Shown here: positions 11,423-31,934 of the stretch, piece after piece
Layout: every line of letters starts with the position of its first letter
Numbering within the stretch: position 1 is the first letter of the stretch
NCBI GenBank assembly: GCA_012729975.1
Contig: JAAYBW010000207.1
Span: 1 to 32,666, forward strand
DNA length: 32,666 nt
Reading direction: 5' to 3'
Source: Clostridiales bacterium
Lineage (GTDB): Bacteria > Bacillota > Clostridia > Oscillospirales > Oscillospiraceae
Notes under the pieces: model-generated
The model's input: the letters and a program-made list of their open reading frames with translations, nothing else
Told to the model about the DNA's origin: nothing
Databases searched by the model: none
Position numbers and translations under genes: made by a program

Positions 11423-11437
11423 CTGAAATATGATATG

Positions 11438-11468
11438 ACCTCCCGCGAAATCAGCGGGAGGTTTTTTC
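11438..11468 (+). terminator. Rho-independent terminator of the HPr gene
   Basis: A perfect 9-bp stem (11438-11446 with 11454-11462), a seven-base loop and a run of T residues at its 3' side. It lies 15 bases past the HPr stop. Confidence 0.9.
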
Positions 11469-11495
11469 TTGTTTTATCATGAAAACTGTTATAAT
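11469..11495 (+). promoter_or_regulatory. Probable promoter of the dehydrogenase-transketolase operon
   Basis: A consensus TATAAT (11490-11495) is preceded by TG with one base between (extended -10). The best -35 is weak: TTGTTT at 11469-11474 with a short 15-base spacer. The site follows directly on the HPr terminator and is about 70 bases before the GTG start at 11564. Confidence 0.5.
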
Positions 11496-11563: not shown

Positions 11564-12622
11564 GTGAAATCCATTCAGGTTATAAAAGTCGGCAGCCTTC
11601 GGGATCCGAACCCTGAAAAGCGGGGTAAAATAAAGGTGGTTGATATACCGGAACAGCAGCTTGGCGATGAGGACGTTCGCATCAAGGTAGCTTATTGCGC
11701 TATATGCGGGAGCGATCCTCACCTTGTTGAGAATATCTTCGGCTGGGAGGTCCCTTTCGGGATGGGACACGAGCTGTCCGGAGTCATAACCGAAGTCGGT
11801 CCAAAAGCGACAAAAAAAGGGCTTAAAGTCGGGGACAGAGTTTCGGGTAATTTCCTTAAGTTCTGCGGTACCTGCTACTACTGTCAAAACGGACAGCAGC
11901 AATTTTGCACGCATGCAGATGAATCCAATAATCCCGGGTTTTCGGAAACGATTGTCTGGCATGAATCCCAGGTATACAAGCTGCCGGATGACGTGAGTCT
12001 GAAAATGGGGTGCCTGCTTGAGCCTACATCTATTGCTGTTCGCGCTATGGATAAGGCGGATATAAAATTCGGGCAGCGAGTCGCAATATGCGGAGGAGGA
12101 CCTATCGGCCTGTTCACGCTTCAGGCAGTCAGTCTGTCCGGCGCTACGGATATCACTTTGATTGAGCCTATTGCCGAGCGGCGGGATCTGGCAAGGAAAT
12201 TCGGAGCATCACATGTGGTGGATCCCGCAGACGAAAACGTCAAAGCCGCTGCCGAGCGCATTACCGGCGGTCTGGGCTTTGATGTGGTATTTGACTGCAG
12301 CGGAAGCGTAAAAGCCGTGCGGGATCTTCCGTATATAACGGCAAAAGGCGGCAAGCTGCTGTACTGCGCCATGTACCCCAATGATTATGAGATGCCGCTG
12401 AATCTGTATAAGTTCTGTTATTATAATGAGATCACAATAAGCGGGCTGTATGTCGCTCCGTATGCTTTCCCGCGTGCACTGCAGATTTTGCCGAGGATGA
12501 GGTACGATGACTTCATAACGAAAGTATTCGACCTGGAAGACGCAGAAGCGGCATTTGAAGCGCAGATAACCGGTAAATGGCCGAAAATACTCATACGATG
12601 CAATAAAATCGAGGGAGAATGA
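11564..12622 (+). CDS. Zinc-dependent medium-chain dehydrogenase (sorbitol/threonine dehydrogenase-like)
   Basis: A 352-residue medium-chain dehydrogenase that should oxidise or reduce a polyol, sugar or related alcohol with NAD(P). Predicted catalytic zinc ligands are C48, H69 and E70 or E153 (LLEPTS); structural zinc is bound by C101, C104, C107 and C115. The Rossmann motif is GGGPIG at 177-182. The substrate cannot be told from the sequence. The GTG start has a strong GGAGGAGAA eight bases before it. It ends one base before the ATG of a split transketolase, so dehydrogenase and transketolase probably act on the same carbon route. No transporter or sugar kinase is present beside it. Confidence 0.88.
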   Translation: MKSIQVIKVGSLRDPNPEKRGKIKVVDIPEQQLGDEDVRIKVAYCAICGSDPHLVENIFGWEVPFGMGHELSGVITEVGPKATKKGLKVGDRVSGNFLKFCGTCYYCQNGQQQFCTHADESNNPGFSETIVWHESQVYKLPDDVSLKMGCLLEPTSIAVRAMDKADIKFGQRVAICGGGPIGLFTLQAVSLSGATDITLIEPIAERRDLARKFGASHVVDPADENVKAAAERITGGLGFDVVFDCSGSVKAVRDLPYITAKGGKLLYCAMYPNDYEMPLNLYKFCYYNEITISGLYVAPYAFPRALQILPRMRYDDFITKVFDLEDAEAAFEAQITGKWPKILIRCNKIEGE

Positions 12623-12623
12623 G

Positions 12624-13493
12624 ATGTATAAATACAACATAGACATGGATCTCGTCCGTTTCCTGGAAGAAAAGGCTCTCAAGATACGCAAGGACCTTGT
12701 TACTTTTGTTTACAGAATAGGTATGGGACATCTGGGCGGAGAACTGTCGATGGTAGAGGTTGCCGTGGCACTCTATTACCATTACATGAATTATGATGTG
12801 ATGGATCCGAAAAAACAGGACAGGGATCGTTTCGTACTCAGCAAAGGTCACTGCAGCGAGACGCTTTACTCAATTTTTGCTGATCTGGGAGCATACACGC
12901 AGGATTATATGGTCGAACACTTTGAGGTGCTTGACAAAACGAAGTTCGGTATGCATACAAACAGGAAGTATGTTCCGCAAATAGAACTGTCCGCCGGATC
13001 ACTCGGACACGGTCTTTCGGTCGCTTTAGGTATGGCGCTTGCAGCGCGTAAGCAGAAAAAAGGGTGGCGCACATTCGTAATGGTAGGCGACGGAGAGCTT
13101 AACGAGGGAAGCAACTGGGAAGCTATTATGGCTGCCGCGCATTATCGGCTTGCAAACCTCGTCTTGATAATTGACAAGAACAAGCTGCAAATGACGGGGA
13201 CGACGGAGCAGGTTATGAATATTGACCCGCTTGATAAAAAGCTCGAGGCCTTCGGCTGGCAAGTTAAAGATATTGACGGCAACAATATGTACTCAATCTG
13301 CGAAGCACTTCAGAGTCTACCTCCGGCCGACCCGATATCAAGAAGAAAACCGGTTGCCATAATATCAAATACTCTCAAAGGCAAGGGTGTTGATTTCATG
13401 GAAGGCAATGCAAAGTGGCACGGCGGCGGAATCGCTAAAGAACAATGCGATGAAGCTTTGTGCTGTATAGATGATAACAGAAAGTGTTGGTGA
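12624..13493 (+). CDS. Transketolase, N-terminal (thiamine diphosphate-binding) subunit, set 1
   Basis: A 289-residue protein matching the N-terminal, ThDP-binding third of a transketolase. It shows GHLGGELS (35-42), SKGHCSETLY, the SAGSLGHGLS stretch, and the ThDP/Mg motif GDGELNEG (155-162) ending at NKLQ (186-189). Its partner, which supplies the other half of the active site, is the next gene. Transketolases move two-carbon ketol units between sugars. It follows the dehydrogenase stop by one base, with GAGGGAG upstream. It differs clearly in sequence from the second set at 22741-23595, so it is not a recent copy. Confidence 0.9.
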   Translation: MYKYNIDMDLVRFLEEKALKIRKDLVTFVYRIGMGHLGGELSMVEVAVALYYHYMNYDVMDPKKQDRDRFVLSKGHCSETLYSIFADLGAYTQDYMVEHFEVLDKTKFGMHTNRKYVPQIELSAGSLGHGLSVALGMALAARKQKKGWRTFVMVGDGELNEGSNWEAIMAAAHYRLANLVLIIDKNKLQMTGTTEQVMNIDPLDKKLEAFGWQVKDIDGNNMYSICEALQSLPPADPISRRKPVAIISNTLKGKGVDFMEGNAKWHGGGIAKEQCDEALCCIDDNRKCW

Positions 13494-13496
13494 CAT

Positions 13497-14465
13497 ATGG
13501 CCGTATTAACAACCTTTGATTTTGACCAGATGCTCTCAAACGCGCGTGAAGCATACGGTGAAGAACTTTTGAGAATGGCGGACGACGGCCTGGATTTTGT
13601 CTTCACGTACTCTGACAACGTCGCGCCATCTTCGAGCGCGGGGAAACTGGTTGCCAAGTATCCGGAACGCTGCTTCAATTTCGGTATAGCCGAGCCTAAT
13701 CAAGTCGGTGCTTCCTGCGGTTTGGCGCTTGGCGGAGAGATAGTTTACTCGCAGGTTTTCGGTCCGTTCCTGTCTCTTCGCGCAGCGGACCAGATTCATA
13801 CGGATATTGCCTACAATGACGTTAATGTTCGTCTGATCGGCACACATGCCGGTGTGACAGCGGGCGGCGGCCCAACGCATAACTGCATAGCGGACCTCGC
13901 GCTCTACAGAGCGATACCGAACCTGACCGTAGAAGTGCCGGCGGATGCGGGCCAGTGCTGTAAAATAGTAAGGCAATCGCATTCATTTGAGGGGCCGATG
14001 ATTATAAGGATCGACCGCGGCGGTTCACCAAACGTTTACGCGGATAATAACTATGAGCTTGTTATCGGAAAGGCAATCGAAACTCTTCCCGGCGCGGATG
14101 TTACGCTCATATCAGCCGGCTCAAGCGTGTACTGGTCATTGATGGGAGCAAAGATTCTGCGCGAGAAATACGGAATCAGCGCAAGGCTTATCGATATGCA
14201 TACAATAAAGCCTCTTGACACGGATATGATTAAAAAGTGCGCTGGCGAGACCGGAGCGATCGTTACGGTAGAGGAGCATTCGATAAACGGCGGACTGGGA
14301 AGCGCGGTTGCCGAGTATCTGATGGAGTCAGGCTTTTCGGGGAGATTTAAAAGGATCGGCTTGCCTGATGAGTTTGCCGTACTCGGTGAGACGGAAGCGG
14401 TATATGAGTATTACGGTATGGATCCAAAGGGTATAGCGGAAAAGGTACGCTTACTTCTCAAATAA
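13497..14465 (+). CDS. Transketolase, C-terminal (pyrimidine-binding) subunit, set 1
   Basis: A 322-residue protein matching the middle and C-terminal domains of transketolase. The catalytic Glu that activates ThDP is E66 in NFGIAEPNQVG, and the substrate-contacting His lies in GGGPTHN. The C-terminal part carries the usual VTLISAGSSVYWSLMGAK and VEEHSINGGLGSAV signatures. It begins three bases after its partner's stop; the ribosome site is weak, so translation is probably coupled. A bidirectional terminator follows at 14565-14606. Confidence 0.9.
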   Translation: MAVLTTFDFDQMLSNAREAYGEELLRMADDGLDFVFTYSDNVAPSSSAGKLVAKYPERCFNFGIAEPNQVGASCGLALGGEIVYSQVFGPFLSLRAADQIHTDIAYNDVNVRLIGTHAGVTAGGGPTHNCIADLALYRAIPNLTVEVPADAGQCCKIVRQSHSFEGPMIIRIDRGGSPNVYADNNYELVIGKAIETLPGADVTLISAGSSVYWSLMGAKILREKYGISARLIDMHTIKPLDTDMIKKCAGETGAIVTVEEHSINGGLGSAVAEYLMESGFSGRFKRIGLPDEFAVLGETEAVYEYYGMDPKGIAEKVRLLLK

Positions 14466-14564: not shown

Positions 14565-14606
14565 ATAAAAAATCCTTCGGTCGCCTGACGACCGGAGGAT
14601 TTTTTT
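14565..14606. terminator. Bidirectional terminator between convergent genes
   Basis: A 13-bp stem with one G-T pair (14571-14583 with 14589-14601) and a five-base loop. T residues follow it on the plus strand, and an A-rich run before it gives TTTTATTATG on the minus strand. It can serve both the transketolase operon and the convergent M14 peptidase gene. The rest of 14466-14671 contains a GC-rich stretch with two GCATGC sites but no gene. Confidence 0.85.
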
Positions 14607-14671: not shown

Positions 14672-15949
14672 CTAAACCACATATAGCACATATGCCATAA
14701 CCGGTTCGTTTTGCGCATAGATTGTGTCGAATTGTGAAATCGGCACAGGGCTTGTTCCGATGCCTGCTTCAATGGTGTATCCGGGTTTGTTGAAATCCTG
14801 AATGAACCAATCCTTATATCCCGCAAATGACGAGATGTAGGGTGTAAGCTCAAGTGAATAACCGCTGAGTCTTGCCATTTCCTCGCCGATTTTTCTTGAA
14901 TTTTCGGGTTCAAAGTCAAGAAACTTCCAGTAAATAACTTCGCCTTGAGTATGGTATGATATTGTTATACTAAAATTTCTTTCTTTCGTAAAGTTGAATA
15001 AAGCTTCACTTTCCGGTTCTGTAAGAACCGCACTGCCGACGTAATCGCGCGGACCCGGTTTTGTGAAGCCCTGTGAAAACTTGATTTCCCTTGCCTGCTC
15101 CCATCCGGCAGGGTACTGAAGATTTAAATCCACTCCTCTGATGTTTGCTTTCCACCCTGCGGGAAAATCTATGAGAGGGTAATTTGCCGATAGCGCTGCG
15201 GCTCTTTTATACAGCAATTCGCCTGGTGCTGTTTCACCTGTCACCAGATCAACCCCGTCCGGGTTTACCATGGGTATTAGGAGCATTTGTGAGGTAGAAT
15301 AAAGCTCTGCCGCACTGTGTCCGCCGATATTTGTTCCGGATATTACCGCGGAAGCGTAGTTCTCAAGAAATTTCATTACTAAGGGAGAGGTTATCCATTC
15401 GTTAGCGTGATGAGAGGCATTAACGAATACCTCCGGTTGACCCTTTCCCATTTTCAAATAAGGGATATCTTTACCGGATACGCTCAAACCCGCGGTACCC
15501 GATGAGATGAAGGGATACCTGGCTTTCAGACCCGCAATGCAGTAGCTTAATACAGTTGACGTAAATCTTATATCGCCGGGAACCACCGAAAATGATAGTG
15601 GTATTATGAGCGTTTGGCCGATTTGTAAATTAAAAAAATCGACGCCGGGATTGGCTGCTTCTATTGCGCGAATTTGCGATCCGTAGCGACCGGCCAATCT
15701 GTAAAACGTGTCCCCGCTCTTAACCCTGATTATGGTAAAACCCGTCAGCCACGGTTCCAGTGCTCCCCATGTCAGCGGGCCTGCAATCCCATCAGGTTTC
15801 AGCCCGTGATTATTTTGAAATATCACAAGAGCATTATACGTCATCTGTCCGAAAATGCCGTCTAAAACCAGTGCGGCTCCGGTTCGATTAAGCGCTTTTT
15901 GAAGAAGCTCTGTTTGCGCTCCTTTCATACCGATATGCAGCGTTTTCAA
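14672..15949 (-). CDS. M14 zinc peptidase with peptidoglycan-binding and LysM domains
   Basis: A protein of about 425 residues that probably cuts the stem peptide of peptidoglycan, like the gamma-D-glutamyl-diamino acid endopeptidase I of Lysinibacillus. From the N-terminus: a PG_binding_1 repeat (about 1-68), a LysM domain (about 72-118, VKSGDTFYRLAGRYG), and an M14 carboxypeptidase-type domain. Zinc ligands are H181 and E184 (HHANEW) and H333 (SYHTQGE); E394 in YTIEAGIG is the catalytic Glu. I place the start at TTG 15949 because GAGGTGAT lies seven bases before it and the protein then opens directly with the repeat. The ATG at 16021 is in frame but has a cramped ribosome site. No signal peptide is seen, as in some sporulation peptidases. 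Confidence 0.85.
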   Translation of the reverse strand: MKTLHIGMKGAQTELLQKALNRTGAALVLDGIFGQMTYNALVIFQNNHGLKPDGIAGPLTWGALEPWLTGFTIIRVKSGDTFYRLAGRYGSQIRAIEAANPGVDFFNLQIGQTLIIPLSFSVVPGDIRFTSTVLSYCIAGLKARYPFISSGTAGLSVSGKDIPYLKMGKGQPEVFVNASHHANEWITSPLVMKFLENYASAVISGTNIGGHSAAELYSTSQMLLIPMVNPDGVDLVTGETAPGELLYKRAAALSANYPLIDFPAGWKANIRGVDLNLQYPAGWEQAREIKFSQGFTKPGPRDYVGSAVLTEPESEALFNFTKERNFSITISYHTQGEVIYWKFLDFEPENSRKIGEEMARLSGYSLELTPYISSFAGYKDWFIQDFNKPGYTIEAGIGTSPVPISQFDTIYAQNEPVMAYVLYVV

Positions 15950-16175
15950 CTGATCAATCACCTCATTGTTAACAACATATGTTATTAAACCCGGTAAAAT
16001 TACAACAGCAATGCTAAACATTTTCCTTAAAGCTTCTGGAATGCGGCAATATGCTTGATGTATATTTCAGGATAACCATCGTTGAGCTTATTTGACATTG
16101 TGAAACTCCGTTATTTCCGTCGGGTGCAGGCATATTATCAATGTCCGCTTAGCGGATATAACGGAGGGCAAGAAA

Positions 16176-22740: not shown

Positions 22741-23595
22741 ATGGATCGAATTAAGGCAAAGGAACTGAGAGTATTTGCCGAGGAAATACGCGTGGAAACA
22801 TTAAAGACAATCGGCTGCGCGGGTTTCGGCCATGTGGGCGGCGCCATGTCAATCGTGGAAACCGTTGCCGTGCTCTATGGCGACATAATGAAATATGACC
22901 CGAAAAATCCCGGCTGGCAGGACAGAGATAAGCTTATTTTGTCAAAAGGCCATGCGGGCCCCACACTTTACGCGGTGCTGGCTATGAAAGGTTTTTTCCC
23001 GAAAGAGATGCTTACCGAGCTTAATAAAGGCGGAGGCAGGCTTCCGAGTCATGTAGACCGCAATAAGACTCCCGGAATCGACATGACAGCCGGCTCACTC
23101 GGGCAAGGTCTGTCCGTAGCGGCGGGTGTTGCTTTGGGCGATCGGATGGACGGCAGAGCCAGCCGTACATTCGTAATAGTCGGAGACGGCGAGCTCGACG
23201 AAGGTCAGAACTGGGAAGGAATTATGTTCGCAAAACAGTTTAAGCTGGATAATTTGATTTGCCTTGTGGACGCGAACGGTCAACAGCTTGACGGGTATAC
23301 AAAAGATATAATGGATTTAGGCAGTATAGCCGATAAACTGCGGTCATTCGGCTGGAACACACAGGATGTGGACGGGCACGACATCTCACAGATATACGAT
23401 GCGATAATCGCTGCATCGGATATCAAGGGAATTCCGTCAGCGATAATTTTGCATACAAAAAAAGGACATGGCTGCACGTTCGCGGAGGGAGTGCTGGCTA
23501 ACCATCACATCAATTTCAAGTGCGAGCAGATTGACGAAGCCCTTGAAGCAGCTCAAGCGACTCTTGAAAAGGCAAAAAAAGCCTTATATACGTGA
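22741..23595 (+). CDS. Transketolase, N-terminal (thiamine diphosphate-binding) subunit, set 2
   Basis: A 284-residue N-terminal transketolase subunit. It carries GHVGGAMS (30-37), LSKGHAGPTLY, TAGSLGQGLS and the ThDP motif GDGELDEG (148-155) with N179 as the likely Mg ligand. It has the same domain plan as the gene at 12624 but is quite different in sequence. It lies 22 bases after glyS with a GAGAGGTGGT ribosome site and no promoter that I can see between, so it is probably read from the glyS promoter. Together with its partner it may provide the pentose phosphate transketolase, or act on another ketose; the sequence does not decide. Confidence 0.9.
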   Translation: MDRIKAKELRVFAEEIRVETLKTIGCAGFGHVGGAMSIVETVAVLYGDIMKYDPKNPGWQDRDKLILSKGHAGPTLYAVLAMKGFFPKEMLTELNKGGGRLPSHVDRNKTPGIDMTAGSLGQGLSVAAGVALGDRMDGRASRTFVIVGDGELDEGQNWEGIMFAKQFKLDNLICLVDANGQQLDGYTKDIMDLGSIADKLRSFGWNTQDVDGHDISQIYDAIIAASDIKGIPSAIILHTKKGHGCTFAEGVLANHHINFKCEQIDEALEAAQATLEKAKKALYT

Positions 23596-23607: not shown

Positions 23608-24570
23608 ATGTTTAAAGTAAAACCCGTTATTGAAAATTCTCCGGTTCTCATGAGAGATGCATATTGTTCCGCTTTGTCGGATCTTGCCGAAAAGGATTCC
23701 CGAATAGTCGCATTGGATGCCGACTTGGTAAGCTCTTCCGGGATGAAGCCTTTTTTTGATAAATATCCCGATCGTGCGATACAATGCGGTATAGCCGAGG
23801 CAAATATGATAGGGGTAGCGTGCGGACTGTCTTTGATGGGAAAGGTTCCGTTTATTCACAGTTTCGGGCCGTTTGTCACCCGAAGGGCATGTGATCAGAT
23901 ATTTATATCCGCATCGTACGCAAAACTTAACATCCGGATACTGGGCTCAGACCCGGGTGTGACCGCTGCTTATAACGGCGGGACCCATATGCCTTTTGAA
24001 GATATGGGTGTTTTGCGCAGTATTCCCGAAATTACCCTGCTGGAACCGTGTGATCCGGTTGCCGTAGCCGATATTGTCTCACAGCTGGCTGATCTGTACG
24101 GGGTGTACTATATGCGCATGGCGAGGAAAAACGTCCCCGGCGTATATGAAGCGGGAAGCTCTTTTGAAATCGGGAAAGGAAACATCCTGAGAAACGGATG
24201 CGACGTAACGATAATTGCCAGCGGTATTATGGTTGCCGAAGCGTTAAAAGCCGCGGTAATGCTTGAGGAAGACGGTGTTTCCGCCAGGGTCGTCGATATG
24301 TTCACCTGGAAGCCGATGGACACTCAGCTTGTTTTAAGATGCGCCGAGGAGACCGGTGCCATTGTAACAGCGGAAAATCATAATATAATAGGCGGGTTGG
24401 GAAGTGCGGTATCGGAAGCCGTTGTCTCAACCCTTCCGGTACCGGTCAATATGGTAGGTGTTAACGACAGATTCGGACAGGTCGGCTCAGAGGATTTCCT
24501 GCGCAGGGAGTACGGCCTTACCGCTGAAAGAATCGCGGAATCGGCAAAGCAGGTAATAGAACGCAAATAG
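23608..24570 (+). CDS. Transketolase, C-terminal (pyrimidine-binding) subunit, set 2
   Basis: A 320-residue partner of the preceding gene. The ThDP-activating Glu is E64 in CGIAEANMIG; the usual substrate His is in GGTHMPFEDMG. The C-terminal domain shows VTIIASGIMVAEALKA and TAENHNIIGGLGSAVSE. It starts 12 bases after the N subunit with a strong GAGGAGGAGAG ribosome site, unlike the weak site of the set 1 C subunit. A terminator follows at 24625-24662. Confidence 0.9.
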   Translation: MFKVKPVIENSPVLMRDAYCSALSDLAEKDSRIVALDADLVSSSGMKPFFDKYPDRAIQCGIAEANMIGVACGLSLMGKVPFIHSFGPFVTRRACDQIFISASYAKLNIRILGSDPGVTAAYNGGTHMPFEDMGVLRSIPEITLLEPCDPVAVADIVSQLADLYGVYYMRMARKNVPGVYEAGSSFEIGKGNILRNGCDVTIIASGIMVAEALKAAVMLEEDGVSARVVDMFTWKPMDTQLVLRCAEETGAIVTAENHNIIGGLGSAVSEAVVSTLPVPVNMVGVNDRFGQVGSEDFLRREYGLTAERIAESAKQVIERK

Positions 24571-24624: not shown

Positions 24625-24662
24625 AAAGTCCTTCCCGGTTTGCGCAGGGAAGGACTTTGTTT
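24625..24662 (+). terminator. Terminator after the glyS-transketolase operon
   Basis: A perfect 12-bp stem (24625-24636 with 24647-24658) with a 10-base loop, followed by GTTTAATAAATAAT. The stem's own CTTT ends add to the U tract. It may also stop the convergent bofA transcript, though less efficiently. Confidence 0.8.
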
Positions 24663-24710
24663 AATAAATAATCGCCGCAGTGCATTAACGATTCGTATTC
24701 ACCGCAAGTG

Positions 24711-24980
24711 CTATGTAATCAGAAGCCATCTGATAAAGAGAATGAGCGCGAGACCGGGAGCGCCCAGCAATCCGATGGTGATTGCATTAAGCGGATTGAT
24801 TCCGATACCTAAGCCGACGAAAGCTCCGAGCCAGTTATATAAAAACAAAGCGGCGAATCCGACAGCCGTATTAAGCAGCGTTTTAAAAAGGAGTCTCAAC
24901 TCTGAGCTGAATATGCGGCACAGGACCAGGACTACGATGACCGCGGCTAAGACGAGAGCGAGTTTTACTGCAATGGTCAA
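24711..24980 (-). CDS. bofA: Pro-sigma-K processing inhibitor BofA family protein
   Basis: An 89-residue membrane protein with two or three hydrophobic helices. The second half matches the BofA pattern (LLNTAVGFAALFLYNW, then GIGINPLNAITIGLLGAPG). In Bacillus, BofA holds the SpoIVFB protease inactive in the mother-cell membrane until SpoIVB relieves the block; spoIVB is about 8 kb away in this window. Its ATG overlaps the stop of the upstream yaaL by four bases, which is the known yaaL-bofA arrangement. Neither SpoIVFA nor SpoIVFB is in the window. Confidence 0.88.
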   Translation of the reverse strand: MTIAVKLALVLAAVIVVLVLCRIFSSELRLLFKTLLNTAVGFAALFLYNWLGAFVGLGIGINPLNAITIGLLGAPGLALILFIRWLLIT

Positions 24981-25279
24981 GAACTGTCACCCCCTCGGGG
25001 CTTATGAGAGGTAATTTTCTCGGAAAACGATAACGATTGAGCATTAGTATTACCGATTGTTTTTATCATTCTTACCAGATAAGCGTATTTGGATTGGAGA
25101 GAATTTATCTCATAGACACTGGCTTCTATCAGTTCCGGTTCCACGCTGGAGTTGAAATTTCTATATGCGCCGGCGAGGCACCTTTTTAAATCAGCCAGAT
25201 CCAACATCAGCGATGACAGTTCCGCTCTCCGGGCAGCTGCCATTTTTGCGGCTTCACGCCGACTTAAACCGGAACGCAT
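24977..25279 (-). CDS. yaaL: YaaL-like DUF2508 family protein
   Basis: A 100-residue soluble, mostly helical protein of the DUF2508/YaaL family, function unknown. The family core is visible as AYRNFNSSVEPELIEASVYEINSLQSKY-type residues at about 38-65 (NFN, then PELI, then YEIN, then the Q..Y pair). AAGGGGTG lies seven bases before the ATG at 25279. The stop overlaps the bofA start. In Bacillus and many relatives recR precedes yaaL; here the upstream gene is a divergent topoisomerase, so the pair has been separated from recR. Confidence 0.8.
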   Translation of the reverse strand: MRSGLSRREAAKMAAARRAELSSLMLDLADLKRCLAGAYRNFNSSVEPELIEASVYEINSLQSKYAYLVRMIKTIGNTNAQSLSFSEKITSHKPRGGDSS

Positions 25280-30620: not shown

Positions 30621-31934
30621 TTGAGATATGTGATATTTCGAATAAAGACCGCAGCAGCTGTCATCTTGCTTGCGGCTATGTTGTCGGGATGCGTTTCCAT
30701 GTATAACAGGGAATACAGCGTGGTAACGGAACACACAGGAGAGTATTACGACACCGAGGAAGACGACAACGTCCAGGAAATCAGCAATTACAGCGGCATG
30801 AGAGCTGCATTGCTGAAGTTTGTGGGCAGTGCGACGGAATACGGTATAATAACAACAAAAAATTATAACGGCGATCCGCAGGGAGACATATCGGATGCAT
30901 GCAGGGAGGTTTTAAATGAAACACCTCTGGGAGTTTATGCAATCGATTATATAAGCCATGTCTGCACAAGAATACTGTCATATTATCGTATAGAGGTAAG
31001 TATTACTTATAAGCGAACTCAGGCGGAAATAGATTCAATCCTTGCGGTGAGCAGCGCAAGTCAAATGTATTCGGAGCTGCGCAGCGCGGCACTTGACTAC
31101 AAAAATACAATCACGTTCAGTACTATCGCATCAGCTGTAACCGAGGAAGATCTTGCCGGATATATAGAGGACTTATACAGAAACACTCCTATACAAATGG
31201 CTGAAATGCCGACTGTAACGATTGAGGCGTATCCTTCAATCAATGCCGTACAGAAAATAATCGAGATTAAACTTAATTATTCCCAATCTGCCGATATACT
31301 CAAGGAGCGATTGGCACAAACGCGGTCGGCGGCCGCGCAGCGAATAGTCGGCGCACTTGATTTACCTTATGCTCAGCAAACATTACGTTTGTGCGAGGTT
31401 ATCGCTGAAGGCGCTGAATACTCGTCCGGCGGATCCACCGCTTATGATGCCCTTGTAAACGGAATCGTCGATTCTGAAGGTTATGCCATGGCTTATAAGC
31501 TCCTGTGCGATATCGTCGGAGTAAGTTGTATCGTTATTCAAGGGCGTTTAAACAGTGAGCAGCACTTTTGGAATATTGTAGAGGTTGACGGTAATTGCTA
31601 TCATATTGATGTATGCAGTTTTGATAAATCGGGGCCTGAGGAAGCATTCCTGAAAAGAGACAGCGATATGTGGGGAGATTATTGGTGGGATACGGAAGAG
31701 TATCCGACCTGCGAGGGAGAACTGACATATCAGGAGCTTGTAAACCCGCCTCAAGCGGAGAATGTGATCGACGCAGCCGGTGGGGAACCGGCGGGCGAAG
31801 ACGGATATGATGACGCGGTTCCCGATGAGGCGGCTGTCCCGGACGAGGAAGAGCCTGAATCTCAGGATGATTCCCTGCCGATCCCTTCCGATTCGCCCGA
31901 AGAGATTCCTGAACCAGAAAGCTCCGAACCGTAA
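30621..31934 (+). CDS. Lipoprotein with a transglutaminase-like domain and an altered active site
   Basis: A 437-residue predicted lipoprotein. The signal peptide ends in LSGC (C24 lipidated). Residues about 60-245 are mixed and not recognised. Residues about 265-335 match a transglutaminase-like fold: TAYDALVNG, then GYAMAYKLLCDIVGV, then HFWNIVEVDG and YHIDV. The expected catalytic Cys (usually xCEGYA) is S285 here (DSEGYA), while H315 and D330 are kept, so it may be inactive or a binding protein. The last 55 residues are rich in Asp, Glu and Pro. The TTG start has GGAG six bases upstream and is needed to keep the signal peptide. It is the last gene before a convergent PAP2 gene. Confidence 0.8.
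   Translation: MRYVIFRIKTAAAVILLAAMLSGCVSMYNREYSVVTEHTGEYYDTEEDDNVQEISNYSGMRAALLKFVGSATEYGIITTKNYNGDPQGDISDACREVLNETPLGVYAIDYISHVCTRILSYYRIEVSITYKRTQAEIDSILAVSSASQMYSELRSAALDYKNTITFSTIASAVTEEDLAGYIEDLYRNTPIQMAEMPTVTIEAYPSINAVQKIIEIKLNYSQSADILKERLAQTRSAAAQRIVGALDLPYAQQTLRLCEVIAEGAEYSSGGSTAYDALVNGIVDSEGYAMAYKLLCDIVGVSCIVIQGRLNSEQHFWNIVEVDGNCYHIDVCSFDKSGPEEAFLKRDSDMWGDYWWDTEEYPTCEGELTYQELVNPPQAENVIDAAGGEPAGEDGYDDAVPDEAAVPDEEEPESQDDSLPIPSDSPEEIPEPESSEP

Follow-up and report, generated by a model that had tools for sequence, protein, structure and literature searches.

A conserved dehydrogenase and split transketolase operon in a Clostridiales bacterium, proposed as a desmolase-like ketol-cleaving module

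Introduction

What is a transketolase doing directly behind a zinc-dependent dehydrogenase? The question is raised by a 32,666-nucleotide stretch of DNA from a Clostridiales bacterium (Oscillospiraceae; GenBank assembly GCA_012729975.1, contig JAAYBW010000207.1, positions 1-32,666), referred to as the window. At positions 11564-14465 it carries a gene for a medium-chain dehydrogenase (DH), followed by genes for the N and C halves of a split transketolase (set 1). Transketolases are usually assigned to the pentose phosphate pathway. The same enzyme classes occur in steroid-17,20-desmolase operons, in which, according to excerpts of a 2026 paper (PMC13348027), the transketolase-family desmolase DesAB is encoded in the same operon as DesC, the Clostridium scindens cortisol 20-alpha-hydroxysteroid dehydrogenase (PDB 4OH1). 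An initial annotation had treated the three genes of the window as a unit with a single purpose, possibly a route for an unusual ketose or polyol. Here, we report that the set 1 operon is real, conserved and accessory, and that it is related to yet distinct from DesABC. On balance, we favor a role as a desmolase-like module that would cleave a two-carbon ketol from its substrate.

Results

Three open reading frames (ORFs) on the same strand were confirmed at 11564-14465. The DH gene (11564-12622, + strand) has a GTG start and encodes 352 amino acids (aa) with the Pfam domains ADH_N and ADH_zinc_N. One base further on begins the transketolase N half (12624-13493, +; 289 aa), the thiamine diphosphate (ThDP)- and metal-binding domain (Transketolase_N, E 1.5e-40), and after three more bases the C half (13497-14465, +; 322 aa), which contains the pyrimidine-binding and C-terminal domains (Transket_pyr and Transketolase_C). 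These coordinates agree with the spacing of one and three bases described initially, and the two halves adjoin a zinc-dependent medium-chain dehydrogenase (MDR), as in a desmolase operon.

Genome contigs were scanned with four DH sequences, which yielded 196 relatives, and the best 80 of the 196 were retained. A set-1-type N half, defined as at least 58% identical to set 1, started directly behind DH in 40 of the 80 loci, indicating that the adjacency of DH and transketolase is not a matter of chance and that the claim of one three-gene unit was well founded. A more distant split transketolase lay beside DH (within about 400 bases) in another 20 loci, as an N half following DH within 400 bases in 7 and as a C half preceding DH in 13. 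Split transketolases were thus found beside DH in 60 of the 80 loci, in two gene orders and, judging from record titles, in several phyla. DH was detected at E <=1e-60 in only 3 of 197 order-level genomes, that of the window included, which argues for a patchy distribution of the module. According to record titles, carriers of the set-1 clade include metagenome-assembled genomes (MAGs) from sheep, roe deer and horse gut, as well as Treponema, Paenibacillus and Clostridium ljungdahlii.

The remaining 20 of the 80 DH loci had no adjacent transketolase. In four of these (L063, L073, L075, and L080), a transketolase pair was located some kilobases away. For the other 16, a search of 15 genomes revealed no close set-1 C half elsewhere; the best matches were 51% and 50% identical, the remaining ones were at or below 47%, and two genomes gave no match at the cut-off. 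A short-chain dehydrogenase (SDR) gene was near DH in 5 of the 20 loci. Such loci would be expected if DH were the core, either alone or paired with the SDR to epimerise an alcohol, while the transketolase were an optional neighbor with no direct metabolic link to it. We consider this quite unlikely, given the 60 loci in which a split transketolase does stand beside DH across two gene orders and several phyla, and the des operon, which functionally links the same enzyme classes. The adjacency survey nevertheless gave a divided answer, and the earlier phrase "a single purpose" was too strong, because DH also occurs without a transketolase.

Among the 40 set-1-type loci, some of which were cut by contig ends, an SDR gene was near the operon in 33, a GPH symporter gene was upstream in 15, and an AraC-type regulator gene was near in 15. 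The fuller operons carry genes for the GPH symporter, DH, the N half, the C half and the SDR. The symporter match to GPH was above the cut-off, and the nearest models of the SDR were KduD, with a score under the cut-offs. The genome of the window contains an ortholog of this SDR (69% identical to that of L030) on another contig, near the contig end, where it is preceded by a thymidylate-synthase-like gene (PF00303) and by one that resembles, by eye, a glycyl-radical activating enzyme. The only PF13347 match over the cut-off in this genome was a weak one, to a 511-aa transporter.

Other arrangements were also observed. In L010 (6819-16365), the DH is 80% identical to that of the window, among the most similar ones, and has no transketolase; it adjoins a Bmp-type (PnrA-like) substrate-binding protein gene with ABC-transporter-like genes behind, and a thymidylate-synthase-like gene lies upstream, of the same Pfam family as the gene preceding the unlinked SDR in the genome of the window. 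A second cluster type (L065, L066, L073-L075, and L080-L082) combines DH and a distant split transketolase with another transporter and a second MDR dehydrogenase, about 40% identical to DH. Actinobacterial loci (L069, L071, L072, L078, L079, L083, L084, L087, and L089) show the order N half, C half, DH; L083 additionally carries genes for ABC-transporter-like proteins (by sequence), an SDR, an epimerase-like TIM barrel and aldehyde dehydrogenases. A URO-D-type methyltransferase family (fam 15) was found near the operon in L045, L048, L056, L068, and L082.

Transketolase trees were computed as quick IQ-TREE runs with SH-aLRT support. No match to 4OH1 at 1e-100 was found in 299 Lachnospiraceae genomes, which did not necessarily include C. 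scindens, and operon L140 of the L065 genome (Agathobaculum massiliense according to the record title), called des-type for its gene content, was used as a stand-in for authentic C. scindens DesAB. L140 encodes a LysR regulator (by sequence), an SDR, both transketolase halves, a DH with 66% identity to DesC, and a GPH transporter. In the C-half tree (111 rows), set 1 fell into a 38-row clade (SH-aLRT 99), to which the window itself and the L066 copy of set-1 type belong. Duplicate loci had been omitted, as had rows of less than 290 aa and ORFs of more than 450 aa, which removed L006, L007, L013, L024, L025, and L055 from this clade. The 38 rows were nested in a 41-row clade with L140 and L090/L091 (99), and these 41 in a 67-row clade (99) that excluded human transketolase, the split transketolase of Carboxydothermus hydrogenoformans (CHTK) and the second split transketolase of the window (set 2). 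The N-half tree (108 rows) recovered the same 38-row (99) and 41-row (100) clades; a wider grouping of all DH-linked sequences did not form one clade in it. Most, not all, of the 67 rows are known to be DH-linked, a share that is biased by the gathering of C-half rows largely via DH loci. The short pieces of L090, L103, and L113, which extend about 0.6 kb upstream and 1-1.5 kb downstream of the pair, contained no MDR dehydrogenase. In both half-trees, set 1 grouped with neither CHTK nor human nor housekeeping transketolases, and the placement with the ordinary enzymes that the initial annotation had named as contrary to its proposal was not seen.

Set 2 is encoded at 22741-23595 and 23608-24570 (Pfam scan), behind the glycyl-tRNA synthetase gene. 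A search with set 2 detected a split C half in 28 of 31 genomes of the window's family. Apart from the genome of the window, 27 had one at 40-78% identity, in seven of them at 57-78%; the remaining 3 genomes gave a DXS-sized match only. Set 2 is therefore taken as the general transketolase of this genome, and set 1 as an accessory copy. The N halves of sets 1 and 2 were accompanied in this genome by a weak third match in a 628-aa frame, taken for DXS, and four other family genomes had a second split C half, 33-37% identical to set 2.

Active-site residues are given in E. coli numbering, which we take to be correct for H26, H66, H100, R358, H461, E468, H473, and similar positions. All 38 rows of the set-1 clade retain the cofactor and catalytic residues H26, H66, H100, D155, E160, N185, H261, E411, and H473, as well as S385 and H461; R520 is kept in 37 of the 38, and at R358, 31 rows have Arg and the other 7 have Lys. 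The phosphate-orienting residues of set 1 in the window read R-S-F-H-R, suggesting that the acceptor is phosphorylated. Three other positions are changed in every one of the 38 rows: Arg91 is replaced by Glu (Glu101 of the window N half, codon 12924-12926, +), Glu468 is gapped, with one residue fewer, and Asp469 is Gly. The last two lie in the active-site loop HAGVTAGGGPTH of the C half (13845-13880, +), in which the His461 equivalent is kept. CHTK and human transketolase retain Arg91, Glu468, and Asp469. L140 shares the gap at Glu468 and has Tyr at 469, Gly at 385, Lys at 358, and Asn at 91. The positions S385, D469, R520, and R91 were taken from excerpts of PMC5073344, according to which D469 forms a salt bridge with R91 in E. 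coli transketolase and replacement of D469 makes room for aromatic aldehydes. The changes around Arg91 and Asp469 suggest an unusual donor.

The best PDB match of both set 1 halves was CHTK (6YAJ/6YAK), which was also the best fold match of the C half. In the predicted model of the C half (pLDDT 84.9), the altered loop (119-127) scored below 50, so the model is uninformative as to its shape.

Rows of the residue table were grouped by identity. In the 20-row set-2 clade, 19 rows have Asp at His461 and Asn at both Asp469 and Arg91, the exception being the misgrouped L163, which belongs with the ordinary enzymes. Because the set-2 rows have also lost the Arg91/Asp469 pair, this loss alone is no proof of a new substrate. 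L103 and L104 fell under the CHTK-like group and were shown again as a group of their own. In a 30-row group of other transketolases, which also holds L063, L090, L091, L092, L102, and L113, R520 is lost in many (Gln in 13 of 30, Val in 10 of 30) and H461 often (Gly in 13 of 30).

The intact cofactor residues and the conserved phosphate-orienting residues would also suit a second transketolase of the ordinary sugar-phosphate kind, linked to a polyol dehydrogenase by no more than a common promoter, such as an isoform induced during pentose or hexitol fermentation. This explanation is unlikely, since set 1 falls outside the ordinary enzymes in the trees of both halves, the residues at Arg91, Glu468, and Asp469 are changed throughout the clade, and the role of general split transketolase is already filled by set 2.

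The DH has the domains and zinc-ligand residues of a zinc-dependent MDR dehydrogenase. H69, E70, C101, C104, C107, C115, and E153, which we take to be candidate zinc ligands, were invariant in a four-row alignment. The best PDB match was 4OH1 (E 2e-67), to which DH is about 35% identical. Matches to NCBIfam equivalogs (IolM, Tdh, IdnD, and others) were, among those listed, all far under the cut-off, the best reaching 174 of 450 bits. In a DH tree of 93 rows, which consisted of 92 of the 124 DH rows plus DesC, omitted many odd-numbered DH loci and carried a long-branch warning, the DesC group (4 rows) was sister to 55 rows including the DH of the window (support 97 and 97). The latter therefore belongs to the sister clade and not to the DesC clade itself.

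The operon is flanked by an HPr gene upstream and a convergent M14 peptidase gene downstream. A terminator-like hairpin that belongs to the HPr gene (11437-11463, +; hairpin/promoter scan) marks the upstream border. Just behind it lies an extended -10 match, TGTTATAAT (11487-11495, +), a weak candidate promoter. Because the window contains 2 such matches and 1.55 are expected by chance, this evidence is weak by itself, and the scan for -35/-10 pairs listed none at 11487-11495; the motif described initially is present. The single terminator at the end of the operon was well supported by a strong hairpin with a T-run (14567-14606, +; -24.3 kcal/mol, z -5.96), which may double as the terminator of the peptidase gene (14672-16021). 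An Rfam scan of the window found no family at the gathering score. Elsewhere in the window, ORFs of 437 aa (30621-31934) and 124 aa (24640-25014) had no Pfam match at E 0.001.

Two further lines were followed and rejected. Flanking genes, a hand-picked subset of neighbors, were inspected for clues to the substrate; they encode carbamoyl-phosphate synthase, an SNF2 helicase, an RCC1-repeat protein, AlaRS, a hydrogenase, a chemotaxis receptor and others, and revealed no common theme. The genome of the window has one phosphoketolase (787 aa) and gave no transaldolase match. Phosphoketolase, counted at E below 1e-100, occurred in 4 of 40 set-1-type genomes, 2 of 15 genomes with DH and no transketolase, and 6 of 25 controls, which does not support a general coupling to set 1; it is possible that the two are coupled in the genome of the window only. 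The controls were hand-chosen from the window's family and order (completeness 82-100%), and the locus-derived genomes had no completeness figures.

Discussion

The gene set, its conservation, the kinship to des-type operons, the intact cofactor residues and the altered substrate residues support the reading of set 1 and DH as a desmolase-like ketol-cleaving module, which we judge somewhat probable. From homology and context, we infer the reaction, its acceptor and its direction as follows. DH would oxidise a secondary alcohol adjacent to a terminal CH2OH group, giving an alpha-hydroxyketone; the SDR of the relatives, and perhaps the unlinked SDR here, may attack that carbon from its opposite face or dispose of the product. 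The split ThDP-dependent transketolase would then take off CO-CH2OH as a C2 ketol, with a phosphorylated aldose (for example, glyceraldehyde-3-phosphate) as the acceptor, to give xylulose-5-phosphate, leaving an aldehyde or ketone shorter by two carbons. Where present in relatives, the symporter would import the substrate. Such a module would need no substrate kinase or isomerase, which would fit the absence of both noted in the initial annotation. Judging from the sequences, the two carbons are probably clipped from a compound other than a steroid hormone, and polyols of plant origin, or other side chains, are more likely substrates. The initial idea of a route for an unusual ketose or polyol thus survives in part: a DH combined with a C2 ketol transferase makes an unusual substrate probable, with a polyol or ketose as a candidate.

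Several observations weigh against the module. One is the group of 20 DH loci without an adjacent transketolase. Another comes from two pairs of loci in which the transketolase is present in one member and absent from the other: L030, in the same chromosomal neighborhood as the window, has the order DH-N-C-SDR, and L037, in that same neighborhood, has DH-SDR with no transketolase between; L018 and L023 share a common gene family upstream of DH, and only L018 has the transketolase. The window locus has no GPH symporter, regulator or SDR gene, and its DH is only about 35% identical to DesC. The trees were quick ones with long branches, that of L140 among them. Finally, almost every one of the 38 rows conserves the phosphate-orienting pocket, as an ordinary sugar-phosphate enzyme would too, and the set-2 clade has also lost the Arg91/Asp469 pair, yet it seems to supply the sole split transketolase of several genomes.

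A broader idea, which we put forward only tentatively, is that steroid-17,20-desmolase represents a single specialised branch within a large, mostly dehydrogenase-linked transketolase family (67 of the 111 C-half rows) in Clostridia, Actinobacteria and other groups. Its members would strip C2 ketols from unphosphorylated side chains, such as polyols or lignin-type aryl-glycerols, and set 1 would be a widespread member. The aryl-glycerol idea draws only on the carriers Sporobacter, Papillibacter, and Lactonifactor and on engineered D469 variants that take aromatic aldehydes. Papillibacter and Lactonifactor are presumably linked to aromatic compounds. Sporobacter termitidis uses methoxylated aromatics, according to excerpts of PMC8359953.

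If the module is real, a conserved, dehydrogenase-paired family would provide a general anaerobic means of C-C cleavage next to a ketol, without oxygen, a substrate kinase or an isomerase. DesAB was the only characterised relative of the set-1 family found in this analysis. Glu at Arg91, one missing residue at Glu468 and Gly at Asp469 could serve as annotation marks, and the distinction would help to tell real steroid desmolases from look-alikes in gut metagenomes.

Among known systems, CHTK has the same N/C split and the same fold as set 1; in contrast, it is 39-41% identical, and Arg91, Glu468, and Asp469 are changed in set 1. The engineered E. coli variants (S385, D469, R520) resemble set 1 in that D469 replacement admits aromatic aldehydes and set 1 naturally has Gly there, whereas set 1 departs from them in having no Glu468 and a Glu in place of Arg91 as well, and in retaining S385 and R520.

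The 6-deoxy-6-sulfofructose transketolase SqwGH, as described in excerpts of PMC11659671, is likewise a two-subunit transketolase of anaerobic Firmicutes, which takes a ketol from a non-phosphorylated sugar derivative. It is accompanied by sulfoquinovose genes and has RAFDR in place of the ordinary RSFHR. The two-subunit likeness might suggest that set 1 is a sulfo-sugar transketolase of sulfoquinovose breakdown, which we regard as very improbable: set 1 retains the RSFHR motif, and the window proteins scanned included no member of a sugar isomerase or sulfonate family, a comparison made with the description of SqwGH and not its sequence. Set 2 carries the His461 to Asp change that is read as a sulfofructose mark in SqwGH, here in what looks like the only split copy that several genomes have.

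The closest likeness is to the steroid-17,20-desmolase operons desABCD/desEAB of C. scindens and Butyricicoccus desmolans, which also combine an MDR dehydrogenase with a split transketolase, as well as the GPH and SDR genes that relatives of set 1 add, and which group with set 1 and DH in the transketolase and DH trees. Excerpts of Ridlon et al. (2013; PMC3735941) describe desC relatives in other clostridia, including C. ljungdahlii, beside transketolase halves and a Na+/melibiose-type transporter; the association of DH and transketolase has thus been known in outline, in a few clostridia, since 2013. The shared enzyme classes, the sister position of DH to DesC and the grouping of set 1 with L140 could be taken to mean that the window holds a true steroid-17,20-desmolase operon (DesCAB). 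That is hardly credible. Set 1 is 41% (N half) and 46% (C half) identical to L140, itself a stand-in for authentic DesAB, against 75-82% identity among recognised DesA proteins according to excerpts of PMC5408610. The low identity of DH to DesC argues in the same direction, no DesD-like transporter or LysR was found among the window proteins scanned, and the gut MAGs, Treponema, Paenibacillus and C. ljungdahlii that carry the clade are not a steroid-specific set. Set 1 further differs from the des operons in its DH-N-C order and in the AraC-type regulator of some relatives, and from L140 in keeping S385 and R358, where L140 has Gly and Lys. L142, found in a search of the genus of the L065 genome, is an intermediate between the set-1 and des types: it combines an SDR with a GPH-like transporter, a DH resembling DesC (48%) and an N half that shares 53% identity with set 1.

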